From contig NZ_JACIEI010000005.1 in assembly GCF_014196805.1 (NCBI RefSeq), forward strand, positions 62,001 through 126,000: DNA of 64,000 nt, read 5' to 3'. Positions 22,293 through 26,673 of this stretch are shown here, piece by piece. Position 1 is the stretch's first letter; each line of letters begins with the position of its first letter. The notes under the pieces are model-generated. The model was not told the origin of the DNA. It saw only the letters and a program-made list of their open reading frames with translations, and searched no databases. Made by a program: the position numbers and the translations under genes. The DNA is from Sulfitobacter undariae. Its GTDB lineage: Bacteria; Pseudomonadota; Alphaproteobacteria; Rhodobacterales; Rhodobacteraceae.

Positions 22293-23065
22293 TCTTTGGT
22301 GGCTTTCCACTTGCTGGCAAGTGCGCGTGCGGCATTCCCCAACATCAATACATCAGCGCCTACAGCTACAAACTGCGCACCCGCCGCGATGGCGTTATTT
22401 GTCATTTCGTCCTGAGTGGACAGGATGCCCGGTGCTTTGCCTGCTGCCCTGATCCGCGCCAGCGCGTCCATAATAGCGGCCTGCACATCGGGGTGATTGG
22501 CATTGCCCATGTGGCCCATGTCAGCGGCCAGATCCGCAGGGCCGATAAACACACCGTCTACGCCCTCAACAGCTAGGATATCGTCCAATTGCGCCAGCCC
22601 GCGCAGGTTTTCTACCTGTACCAGTAGACAAATTTGCGCATCCGCCGTTGTACCATAATCTGTGATGGTGCTGAACCGCGAGGCCCGCCCCAAGGCATAT
22701 CCGACGCCGCGATCCCCATGCGGAGGATAGGTGACATCACGGACTAACTGTCGTGCTTGATCCGCACTTTCTACCATCGGAACTAGGATGGTCTGTGCGC
22801 CTGCATCCAGCATTTGTTTCAGCATATAGGTTTCGCCAACGGGCACACGGACAACCGCATGGGCATCGGTGCTGGCGATCACCTGCAACTGCCCAAGGGT
22901 TGAGCGCAGATCATTGGGCGCATGTTCGCCATCAATCACCAGCCAGTCAAAGCCCGCCTGTGCAACCATTTCAGCGGAAAAAGTATCAGCCAAGGCCAAC
23001 CAGCATCCAAACTGGATTTCGCCTGCGGCAAGGGCTTTCTTAAACGGATTTACGGGTGCTGGCAT
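22289..23065 (-). CDS. hpaI: HpcH/HpaI family aldolase
   Basis: A class II, metal-dependent pyruvate aldolase of 258 residues. The family HpaI/GarL cleaves 4-hydroxy-2-oxo acids such as 4-hydroxy-2-oxoheptanedioate or 2-keto-3-deoxyglucarate to pyruvate plus an aldehyde. Visible motifs are WLVIDGEHAPND (41-52), the arginine in VVRVPVGET (R73), a metal glutamate in VQVEN and GPADLAADMG. GAGGAGG precedes the ATG. Only the MFS gene is coupled to it, and no hydroxyphenylacetate genes are near, so the natural substrate may be a sugar acid, with the symbol hpaI marking family only. Confidence 0.86.
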   Translation of the reverse strand: MPAPVNPFKKALAAGEIQFGCWLALADTFSAEMVAQAGFDWLVIDGEHAPNDLRSTLGQLQVIASTDAHAVVRVPVGETYMLKQMLDAGAQTILVPMVESADQARQLVRDVTYPPHGDRGVGYALGRASRFSTITDYGTTADAQICLLVQVENLRGLAQLDDILAVEGVDGVFIGPADLAADMGHMGNANHPDVQAAIMDALARIRAAGKAPGILSTQDEMTNNAIAAGAQFVAVGADVLMLGNAARALASKWKATKE

Positions 23066-23130
23066 GGTTCGCGTCCTCCTCGACGAATTTCACGCATCCT
23101 AGCGCCGGAGTACTGCGAATGACCAGAGTC

Positions 23131-23835
23131 CTAGAGCACCTTTATCACGTCCTTATCAATCGCCAGCATATAGCCACGGCGGGCGATGTTTTTGACCAAC
23201 AACTCGCTGACCATCTGGTTGCCCAGTGTATCACGCAGGCGTTTGATTCGCGTGGCCCCTGCGGCTTCGTCGCAATCGGCGGCAGAGCGGCCAGATATCA
23301 CGCCCTCAATCTCGGACCCTGACAGAATATCATCATCCATCCGCGCCTCTGCCAGCACTGCCAATGTTTCCATCGCGGCGTCGGTCAGTTTAAAGCCGAG
23401 GTTGTTAAGATAGACTTTGTTTTCCTCACGGCTGATCAGCAGCGATGAGACCTGTATGCCTGTCCGCTCAATCTGGGCCATGCGGCGATTAAAGGTGATG
23501 AGCAGCATCAAGAAGACCACAGCAGCCACTAGCATAGCAGCCGCAAAAATCAGCAAGACGCCGATCAACACGCGGTAATTGGTGAGCGTGTCCGAGAATG
23601 CCGTGCCTGATTGGGCGAGAATCTCTAGCAATTTGATCTCGGCGGCGGAGGTGAGGTTGTCATTCTCCATGAATATCCGCTCAACCCGCGCATTAAATGC
23701 ATTGGCATCCGGCAGGGCCCAGAACAAAACAGCAGCGCCAATGACCAGCAGACTGGCAACCGCGCTAATGCCAATCACCACCAGCCTGCCGCCACTCCGG
23801 CGGATGTCAGAAGCGGAGGTAATTTGATCCAGCAC
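23131..23835 (-). CDS. membrane-anchored protein with C-terminal winged-helix DNA-binding domain
   Basis: A 234-residue protein with hydrophobic spans at about 18-40 and 88-114, enclosing a periplasmic loop of about 47 residues, and a cytoplasmic C-terminal part. Residues 138-227 follow the OmpR/PhoB winged-helix pattern: strands around NKVYLNNLGFKLT, helices through MDDDILSGSEIEGVISGR, and the recognition helix and wing in RIKRLRDTLGNQM to ARRGYML. This is ToxR-like in idea but reversed in order. The GTG start has AAGGA six bases upstream. The start lies inside the end of the small exported gene (29-base overlap), suggesting a sensor pair. No named family is recognised. Confidence 0.72.
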   Translation of the reverse strand: MLDQITSASDIRRSGGRLVVIGISAVASLLVIGAAVLFWALPDANAFNARVERIFMENDNLTSAAEIKLLEILAQSGTAFSDTLTNYRVLIGVLLIFAAAMLVAAVVFLMLLITFNRRMAQIERTGIQVSSLLISREENKVYLNNLGFKLTDAAMETLAVLAEARMDDDILSGSEIEGVISGRSAADCDEAAGATRIKRLRDTLGNQMVSELLVKNIARRGYMLAIDKDVIKVL

Positions 23836-24097
23836 TCTTTTTCCTTTTTGCTAACCCATCAGACCCGAAAACGGAGACGATATTCAAAAGCGTCCAGCCT
23901 TGGGCGTTTAAGCGTTGGGCCAATTCATTGCTTGCAGCGGATTTGCTGCATTGCCCGTTCACCTTGGCCACACCGTAATGCAGCTTGAGCGGGTTGCCTT
24001 GTTTGGCTTTGTAATCGGCAAAGCAATCAGCCGCCATAGCAGGCCCGCTAAGGCCTACCAGCAGTATGACGCAAAATGAGAGAAAGATGTGTTTCAT
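23807..24097 (-). CDS. short exported protein overlapping the membrane winged-helix gene
   Basis: A 96-residue protein. The signal peptide (1-22, ending GPAMA-ADC) directs export; the mature part has two cysteines (in ADCFADYK and NGQCSK) that could form a disulfide, and a basic C terminus. I start at the ATG at 24097 because it begins a textbook signal peptide, though no ribosome site is clear; a longer reading from 24220 would bury it. Its last 29 bases overlap the start of the membrane winged-helix gene. It may be the periplasmic partner of that protein. No known family. Confidence 0.65.
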   Translation of the reverse strand: MKHIFLSFCVILLVGLSGPAMAADCFADYKAKQGNPLKLHYGVAKVNGQCSKSAASNELAQRLNAQGWTLLNIVSVFGSDGLAKRKKSAGSNYLRF

Positions 24098-24130
24098 GAG
24101 GCGCAGGATGCGTTTTTTCAATGTGATATA

Positions 24131-24250
24131 CAATATCGGGGTCATCAAAGAGGGGCGGTTATCCAATAACATTGCGCCGATATTGCCTGACTTTGCCCAG
24201 ATAACCCAAGTTGAGAGCACACCGCAGCACAGTTTTGATGTGCCGCCCCT
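24131..24250. promoter_or_regulatory. nested inverted repeats in the divergent promoter region
   Basis: Three perfect inverted repeats interlock here: CAATATCGG (24131-24139) with CCGATATTG (24177-24185), GGTTATC (24157-24163) with GATAACC (24200-24206), and AGGGGCGG (24151-24158) with CCGCCCCT (24243-24250). The region feeds the short exported protein leftward and the basic exported protein rightward. Paired operators for a looping or cooperative regulator are the simplest reading; folding of a transcript is the alternative. Confidence 0.45.
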
Positions 24251-24268
24251 TATCTAAGGAATATTGAT

Positions 24269-24679
24269 ATGCGATTCACATTACCTTCTCGACTTGTTGG
24301 CACATTCACTGCTGCTGTGATTGCTTTGACTTCTTTCTCGGCTCCTGCCTTTGCAGATGATCGCCGCACCCAGCGTACGGTTGCTGCCCTTTTGGGTTTG
24401 GCCGTTGCAGGGGCCATCATCTATGACCAGAAGAAAGACAAACGTGACGAGCGTAAAGTGAAGCGACAGCCTGTGCGCAAACAGGTGATCATAAAGCCAG
24501 CGCGCAGACCTGCGGTTGTACAGCGCCAACATCGCGGCGCATCAACACACCAACGTGTTCAGAGACCGCAGCGGATCGTACGGAATGGGCAGCAGGTTCA
24601 TCGCCGGAATGGTCCCCAAGTGCAACGTTACAGACAGGTCCAGCCCAAGCCGCTGCCGCGTCGCGTGCACCGCAACTAA
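24269..24679 (+). CDS. exported basic Arg/Gln-rich protein
   Basis: A 136-residue protein with a signal peptide at 1-29 (ending APAFA-DD). A small hydrophobic segment follows at about 37-52 (TVAALLGLAVAGAIIY), then a strongly basic tail to the end, rich in Arg, Gln, Lys and Pro, ending PRRVHRN. It could bind anionic envelope polymers; no family is recognised. AAGGA precedes the ATG. It is divergent from the short exported and winged-helix genes, and may be their regulatory target. A clean terminator follows at 24774. Confidence 0.68.
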   Translation: MRFTLPSRLVGTFTAAVIALTSFSAPAFADDRRTQRTVAALLGLAVAGAIIYDQKKDKRDERKVKRQPVRKQVIIKPARRPAVVQRQHRGASTHQRVQRPQRIVRNGQQVHRRNGPQVQRYRQVQPKPLPRRVHRN

Positions 24680-24773
24680 CAGATCAGCGCGATTGGTCAC
24701 AGAATTCGGCGCATGAGTATCACCAAATACGCGCCGATCCCCTTGCGGCATGTCCCGTCGTTTAGGGGGAGAG

Positions 24774-24803
24774 GGGAGAGATGTTCGGGCATCTCTCCCT
24801 TTT
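24774..24803 (+). terminator. rho-independent terminator before rnhB
   Basis: GGGAGAGATG (24774-24783) and CATCTCTCCC (24790-24799) form a perfect 10-base stem with a TTCGGG loop, followed by TTTT. It ends the transcript of the basic exported protein. The ATG at 24781 lies inside this stem, so it is unlikely to be the rnhB start. Confidence 0.88.
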
Positions 24804-24852
24804 ACTTGCGAATCTGCTTGCGAAATGCCCCCGCATCCGTTTTTCCACCCCA

Positions 24853-25467
24853 ATGGAACCTGATTATACATTTGAGATCGCCGCGCAGGCACGCGGCTTT
24901 GCCCGCATCGCTGGCGTTGATGAGGTAGGCCGCGGCCCGTTGGCAGGGCCGGTCACTGCCGCCGCCGTTGTTCTGGACCCTGCGCGAATCCCTGCAGGCC
25001 TGAATGACAGCAAAAAGCTCAGCGCTAAAAAGCGTGAGGCGCTGTATAAGCAAATTCTGGAAGTTGCGGATGTGTCGGTTGCGCATGCCACTGTTGAGGA
25101 AATCGACGAACATAACATTCTACGTGCCAGCCATATCGCAATGGTACGTGCGTTGGAGGGGTTAAAGACACCGCCTGATTATTGCCTGATAGACGGAAAT
25201 ATGCTGCCCCGCGGATTAACCCTGCCTGCGGAAACAATCATCAAAGGGGATGGCCGTTCTGTTTCCATTTCAGCGGCCTCAATTGCGGCTAAAGTGTGTC
25301 GAGATTGTGTCATGTTGTCCCTTGCGCAACAGCACCCCGGTTACGGCTGGGAGACAAACATGGGTTATGGTTCAAAAAGCCACATGTCTGCGCTTCAAAA
25401 TTTGGGCGTAACCCCACACCATAGACGTTCGTTCAAGCCCGTACACAATATCTTGTGGCAAGAATAA
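24853..25467 (+). CDS. rnhB: ribonuclease HII
   Basis: RNase HII removes ribonucleotides from RNA-DNA hybrids and single ribonucleotides from duplex DNA. The 204-residue protein has the active-site DEVGRGPLAGPV near residue 22, the DSKKLSAKKRE motif near 56, and the SIAAKVCRD segment. I place the start at ATG 24853; the longer frame from 24781 begins inside a terminator stem and adds a non-conserved hydrophobic extension. No strong ribosome site is seen at either. ccrM follows on the same strand, an order recurrent in Alphaproteobacteria. Confidence 0.94.
   Translation: MEPDYTFEIAAQARGFARIAGVDEVGRGPLAGPVTAAAVVLDPARIPAGLNDSKKLSAKKREALYKQILEVADVSVAHATVEEIDEHNILRASHIAMVRALEGLKTPPDYCLIDGNMLPRGLTLPAETIIKGDGRSVSISAASIAAKVCRDCVMLSLAQQHPGYGWETNMGYGSKSHMSALQNLGVTPHHRRSFKPVHNILWQE

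Positions 25468-26673
<1,206 letters not shown>

Follow-up and report, generated by a model that had tools for sequence, protein, structure and literature searches.

A membrane-tethered winged-helix protein and its exported partner at a candidate signalling locus of Rhodobacteraceae

The described systems closest to the locus analysed here are the co-component pairs ToxR/ToxS and VtrA/VtrC, in which, according to the available part of PMC9214523, the factor gene lies upstream of that of its partner and the DNA-binding domain is N-terminal. The wider class of TTRs is defined by a predicted transmembrane region together with a predicted DNA-binding domain, and two-span members make up 17% of the TTR set (PMC10269533, available part). 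The characterised membrane-tethered winged-helix factors in Table 1 of that source come mainly from enteric bacteria and vibrios; the table contains no alphaproteobacterial member, and the discussion names membrane LytTR regulators in Caulobacter. Of the architectures in the available text, the nearest is that of Rsp of Neisseria gonorrhoeae, with an N-terminal membrane receptor and a C-terminal DNA-binding part (PMC10269533).

The locus lies in a window of 64,000 nucleotides, the whole stretch of Sulfitobacter undariae DNA that was analysed, and is built around a protein that we call WH. The DNA-binding domain of Rsp is of another type than that of WH. The genes are arranged as follows:

23131..23835 (-), WH, membrane-tethered winged-helix protein, 234 aa, GTG start
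23807..24097 (-), EXP, small exported protein, 96 aa, ATG at 24097, two invariant Cys
23807..23835 (-), overlap of the EXP end and the WH start, exactly 29 nt
24269..24679 (+), BAS, exported basic protein, 136 aa, divergent from EXP-WH

A preliminary description, made from the letters of this DNA, had proposed these three genes, and its layout is borne out in coordinates, strands, GTG start and 29-nt overlap. It had also likened the arrangement to ToxR-ToxS-like pairs, which has to be revised, since gene order and domain order are both reversed relative to ToxR/ToxS and VtrA/VtrC. What is shared with these pairs is a tethered winged helix of the OmpR/CadC type, a small exported partner, neighbouring and usually overlapping genes, and signalling from membrane to promoter, for WH a prediction from sequence (PMC9214523, available part). 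The co-component trait of a two-gene, often overlapping operon with an exported partner is also seen in the EXP-WH layout, a predicted operon. By contrast, the DNA-binding domain of WH is C-terminal and follows two spans, while those of ToxR and VtrA are N-terminal and precede one; the EXP gene stands upstream of WH, while those of ToxS and VtrC are downstream of the factor; and WH, present throughout much of a single family, is well conserved, while co-component systems are presented as a fast-evolving virulence cassette (PMC9214523, available part). Because two of the defining features of these systems, domain order and gene order, differ, WH/EXP is treated here as a variant and not as a member.

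The WH protein and its fold

The N-terminal half of WH consists of membrane spans and a loop, and the C-terminal half carries the winged helix:

23710..23781 (-), WH span 1, residues 19-42, from hydropathy
23575..23709 (-), WH extracytoplasmic loop, residues 43-87
23491..23574 (-), WH span 2, residues 88-115, from hydropathy
23152..23451 (-), WH OmpR/PhoB-type winged-helix domain, residues 129-228, from Pfam profile and fold

For the comparison we used a synteny set of 121 loci with 113 distinct WH sequences. Hydropathy gives two spans per protein in all 121 loci, in agreement with the claim of the preliminary description. There are 4 K/R and 7 D/E in the loop (residues 41-88), against 3 K/R and 1 D/E in residues 114-127. 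Hydropathy and charge together predict an inner-membrane protein whose two termini are both cytoplasmic.

The best Pfam match of the window WH is Trans_reg_C (E 0.0016), with a score of 18.9 bits that does not reach the gathering cut-off of 26.2. When 51 aligned WH orthologues were scanned singly at a limit of E <= 1, it turned out that all 51 matched this family, the best with 7.9e-6. Together with the fold matches and the two spans at 121 of 121 loci, WH thus has both parts of the TTR definition; as the window WH falls below the Pfam cut-off, a Pfam-based TTR census may miss the WH family. A sequence search of the PDB with WH returned nothing useful, and the fold search alone was informative. 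With an AF2 model (mean pLDDT 71, pTM 0.41, part of the wing region below 50), Foldseek matched the DNA-binding domains of RpaA, ArlR, CadC and ToxR. In a second structure alignment, model residues 128-227 matched OmpR/PhoB-type domains with Z up to 11.2, including CadC (Z 10.5, rmsd 2.8, 96 residues) and the ToxR domain (Z 9.3, rmsd 2.7, 91 residues), and the fold matches include DNA-bound PhoB, RpaA, GlnR and ToxR domains. The C-terminal OmpR-type winged helix of the preliminary description, whose absence from profile and fold searches had been named as counting against it, is therefore present.

Residues 129-228 share their fold with the OmpR/PhoB response regulators (RpaA, ArlR, PhoB, RitR; Z 10-11). 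Unlike these, WH has two membrane spans in place of a receiver domain, which was found neither among its own Pfam matches nor among the 25 families shown for the 51 orthologues. The NCBIfam search gave no dedicated family for WH; the matches were scattered response-regulator models and, in 9 of 51 members, one uroporphyrinogen-III synthase model.

The mean fraction of the commonest residue is 0.88 in residues 41-88, 0.89 in residues 126-234 and 0.61 in the first span. The loop is thus as conserved as the DNA-binding part, which suggests a conserved extracytoplasmic contact. Besides, C188 (23272-23274), just N-terminal of the recognition helix, is invariant in 51 of 51 orthologues, and no second Cys is among the invariant residues listed; it could conceivably respond to redox state or metal in the cytoplasm.

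Distribution of the three genes and the exported proteins

The family was sampled with 198 Rhodobacteraceae genomes, nearly one per genus. WH was found in 157 of them and EXP, searched with a profile, in the identical 157, while the corresponding figure for BAS is 151 (149 of the 157 WH-positive genomes and 2 of the 41 WH-negative ones). A class-wide sample gave WH in 4 of 289 genomes, all four Rhodobacteraceae, the 20 misses listed being from other families; an order-wide sample gave 137 of 149, all 149 genomes being Rhodobacteraceae. In the genus Sulfitobacter, 39 of 40 genomes have WH, and the one miss is 64% complete. WH is single-copy in the source genome and 59-100% identical among the family matches listed.

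To place the absences, we used an rpoB tree (one gene, midpoint-rooted) of 75 of the 157 WH-positive genomes and 25 of the 41 WH-negative ones, those with coordinates listed. On it the absence of WH forms 15 separate clades with 13 Fitch changes, compared with a mean of 22.3 and a minimum of 18 in 200 label shuffles. Several WH-negative clades are nested inside WH-positive groups with support >0.93, and the absence at the base of the tree may be ancestral. The scattered absence of WH and the identical distribution of EXP indicate that the pair was lost or gained jointly and repeatedly. Both genes are also kept where they are unlinked, on different contigs in genome G079 and about 4 kb apart in G222, and where they stand in opposite orientation, in G141.

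In the synteny set, EXP adjoins WH at 120 of 121 loci, and at the one miss (L109) WH lies at the edge of the fetched stretch. The preliminary description had made conserved linkage of WH, EXP and BAS in relatives a test of its reading, and both co-occurrence and synteny are conserved across Rhodobacteraceae. Beyond BAS, the window carries rnhB and then a ccrM-type DNA methyltransferase gene (24781-26673), and the order BAS-rnhB-ccrM is kept in many relatives. RNH is present at 104 and CCRM at 70 of the 121 loci, many of which are too short to include CCRM. A functional tie to ccrM/rnhB was considered and set aside: in G186 neither EXP nor WH is still found there, and in G079 and G222 WH is gone from it, so rnhB and ccrM are taken as neighbourhood and not as function. 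Adjoining HpaI and MFS genes were seen at 46 and 33 of 121 loci, mainly in close relatives.

EXP starts with a hydrophobic stretch that resembles a signal peptide, and its cysteines C25 and C50 are both invariant, as expected from the earlier claim of an exported protein with two cysteines. Its predicted fold is b-b-a-b-a. At the EXP-WH junction, 89 of 120 loci have the 29-nt overlap, 2 have a 23-nt overlap and 29 have a gap of 2-43 nt; at the 29 gapped loci EXP measures only 77-85 aa. Among the Roseovarius-like loci (e.g. L072, L075, L105), EXP is without its last 17-20 residues and does not overlap WH, so that the overlapping end comes and goes in one piece.

Weak initial matches had pointed to BhsA/DUF1471 or PepSY as the family of EXP, and both were rejected, with BhsA in 2 and PepSY_2 in 9 of 64 members (best 0.0079). 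Lipocalin_2 gave weak matches in 2 of 64 members (best E 0.076), and no lipocalin was among the Foldseek or VIA matches listed. The EXP sequence matched no solved structure, Foldseek gave no match at E <= 0.001, the best VIA match (Z 6.0) lay inside the stated noise range of the tool, and neither VtrC nor ToxS was among the matches listed.

Members of the BAS family have a signal peptide, followed by a hydrophobic segment with Gly and by a basic tail, and most carry two LPxxC...CL repeats. BLAST detects BAS at 25 of 121 loci only, while an exported-type ORF that is BAS-like by eye lies on the far side of the array described below at 119 of 120 loci (L040 has no credible ORF). At least 2 Cys beyond residue 40 occur in 102 of these 119 BAS-family ORFs, whose starts were picked by a simple score, so that some ORFs are too short. 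The window BAS is shortened and atypical: it stops at PLPRRVHRN where near relatives run on into two Cys repeats. It appears truncated, and other frames show no obvious continuation.

An operator-like array and its further copies

Alignment of the EXP upstream region revealed three conserved 13-bp sites, S1, S2 and S3, with the consensus GACAGGCAATAWC for S1, GTTATCGGATAWC for S2 (21 bp beyond S1) and GWTATTGAATAWC for S3. In the window they are:

24179..24191 (-), operator-like site S1, GTCAGGCAATATC
24158..24170 (-), operator-like site S2, GTTATTGGATAAC
24125..24137 (-), operator-like site S3, GATATTGTATATC

The array sits inside the intergenic stretch 24098-24268, which the preliminary description had taken as a promoter region shared by EXP and BAS, and its presence at 120 loci agrees with that proposal. 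S3 is on the EXP side and BAS lies on the S1 side. Of the 120 loci, 100 have an S1-S2 pair with at most 2 mismatches to the consensus and 20 deviate from it by 3-6; the 120 shuffles have 7-10 each. The S2-S3 spacing is 22 bp in 7 loci, 31-33 bp in 92 and 42-43 bp in 21, or 7, 84 and 21 when each distinct WH is counted once (n=112), which corresponds to about two, three or four helical turns. Both S2 and S3 are palindromes, which counts against WH as the binder, since direct repeats are the commoner target of OmpR-type domains. From its sequence, the array may serve as a sequence-specific operator. A sigma-70 promoter scan of 23000-25000 found 0 promoters (shuffles 1.2).

Exact matches to the degenerate S1-S2 pattern, in which the spacing of the two sites was fixed, occurred in 81 of 157 WH-positive and 0 of 41 WH-negative genomes, and those to its reversed control in 0 of 198; as the array lies upstream of the EXP-WH operon, its absence from WH-negative genomes is partly trivial. 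In the genus scan with at most 1 mismatch, the array was present in 39 of 40 genomes and the reversed control in 1 of 40. Single 13-mers were not enriched genome-wide (51 sites, 52 in the reversed control), so a genome-wide regulon from single sites was abandoned and paired arrays alone were used for the target search.

The loci where the genes have separated tell with which gene the array stays. In G222 WH and EXP are each accompanied by an exact array. BAS of G186 has kept the array, with 1 mismatch, while EXP and WH have moved off together, and the stretch read around them holds no array within 2 mismatches. EXP and BAS still share the array in G079 and G141, and the moved WH has none within 2 mismatches nearby. 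This indicates that the array belongs first to BAS or the exported target and that the regulator can act from elsewhere.

Exact arrays outside the EXP promoter number nine, 7 of the 87 places in the family scan and 2 in the genus scan; one of them, in G222, adjoins WH. For 8 of the 9, a signal-peptide-like ORF starts 81-161 bp away on the S1 side, against a background for such ORFs of 0.18 of noncoding and 0.07 of random positions; this figure is descriptive, because two related pairs are among the eight genes, and because both the cut-off for the signal-peptide score (2.1) and the distance range of 60-170 bp were chosen with the sites already known. The products are a DUF2799 lipoprotein (G101), a ricin-type trefoil protein (G171), a protein BAS-like by eye (G041), one without match (G102), two related proteins without Pfam match in G141 and G222 (45% over 95 aa), and two related BA14K-type exported proteins (39%) in two species of the genus (G010 and G037; L171, L172). 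The exception is G042, where the array has no exported ORF in range and stands 23 bp before another gene, presumably ArgK/MeaB-like. The suggestion of the preliminary description that BAS is the output gains from both observations, as the array stays with BAS after gene separation and its copies precede other exported-type genes.

Among three extra sites with 1 mismatch, only that of the source genome (contig C16) faces a signal-peptide-like ORF, a small one 71 bp away with a signal-peptide score below the 2.1 threshold. On the same contig (L161), two small exported-type ORFs at 1750-2834 flank several GTTATnnnATAAC-like sites including this array, and the region may hold a second target of the circuit within the source genome.

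The proposed circuit and its rivals

Our main reading, to which we give a probability of about two in three, is that WH is a tethered one-component regulator which, with EXP as exported co-factor, regulates BAS and other exported genes through the array. The C-terminal winged helix would bind the phased S1-S2-S3 array cooperatively, and WH at the array would regulate BAS on one side and usually its own EXP-WH operon on the other, together with a few other exported-protein genes, or none, depending on the genome. Periplasmic EXP would contact the conserved 45-residue loop and tune WH. In this way a condition beyond the inner membrane would be coupled to the making of small, often cationic, Cys-containing exported proteins. 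That EXP modulates WH is probable, and envelope-protein homeostasis may be the purpose of the circuit.

The part of EXP can be read otherwise: WH regulates BAS, and EXP is no sensor but a second exported output or a CpxP-like product of negative feedback. This is the strongest rival, though we consider it unlikely. EXP is the gene next to the array at the S3 end, its model shows no known ligand-binding fold, and its mean column identity is far lower than that of WH (50% vs 81%). Gene separation speaks both ways, since in G079 and G141 EXP stays with the array and BAS while WH moves, but in G186 EXP left BAS together with WH. A sensor or co-factor role is favoured by the shared distribution of EXP and WH, which are kept together when unlinked, by the 29-nt overlap at most loci, and by the WH loop, whose conservation equals that of the DNA-binding part.

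The identity of the binder also has to be weighed, as the 13-bp core GTTATnnnATAAC is common to the array and Zur-type boxes. Paired core sites occur in 6 relatives beside genes that we take to be znuA-, zur- or znuC-like, and beside ABC-permease-like genes in a seventh. On contig C24 of the source genome (L162, about 2549), a GTTATGACATAAC site, probably a Zur box, lies directly 5' of a presumably ZinT-like gene, and a second gene, presumably for a COG0523-like GTPase, follows. On contig C8 of the WH-bearing genome G141 (L170, 3031-3074), the sites GTTATGCAATAAC and GTTATCGGATAAC follow each other at a distance of 31 bp. It could thus be imagined that another regulator, Zur/Fur-like or otherwise palindrome-binding, occupies the array and that WH is one of its targets and regulates something else; the palindromic sites suit a dimeric soluble factor, and the unlinked WH genes of G079, G141 and G186 are without array. 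We judge this improbable. The site centres are YNR in 113 of 120 S2 and 103 of 120 S3 sites (216 of 240 together), whereas none of the 15 znu/ABC/ZinT-type sites is YNR (11 RNY, 3 RNR, 1 YNY), and none of the genes next to the nine extra arrays was recognisable as a zinc gene. The array thus shares the core with Zur-type operators and differs from them in centre and in neighbouring genes, which makes Zur, the candidate suggested by the core, a less likely binder. The znu-type pairs were found in 7 of 157 WH-positive and 0 of 41 WH-negative genomes, numbers too small for a verdict; as all seven genomes bear WH, the WH-less ones give no direct comparison.

WH is the best candidate binder of the array, with 16 of 18 residues of its recognition-helix segment EAAGATRIKRLRDTLGNQ invariant in 51 orthologues, a constancy that the site shares. 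That its winged helix no longer binds DNA and has become a protein-interaction module at the membrane would fit the slightly acidic residues 126-234 (14 K/R, 17 D/E) and the window WH score below the gathering cut-off, but is very improbable given this segment, an Arg of the wing region invariant in the same 51 sequences, and fold matches to DNA-bound domains.

A more ambitious version of the main reading is tentative, and we hold it with slightly less than even confidence. It takes WH and EXP as a reversed co-component system, family-wide, in which the Cys-pair protein EXP governs WH, the array is in helical phase, and the regulon of cationic, Cys-repeat, BA14K-type and lipoprotein products would make up an envelope homeostasis pathway unlike the known envelope stress systems.

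The literature search, with most subscription journals outside its coverage, found no description of the WH/EXP family, and the circuit of WH, EXP and array is apparently undescribed; the phased three-site array is new here. A conserved and widespread WH with a predicted operator and predicted targets makes it testable how a membrane-bound factor finds and reads its promoter, and the integer-turn spacing of the array suggests that the bound protein always meets the same face of the DNA. Rhodobacteraceae form a large, mostly marine family and are abundant in the sea. For this family, in which no envelope surveillance route of such a kind was found in the literature searched, the circuit may reveal one.
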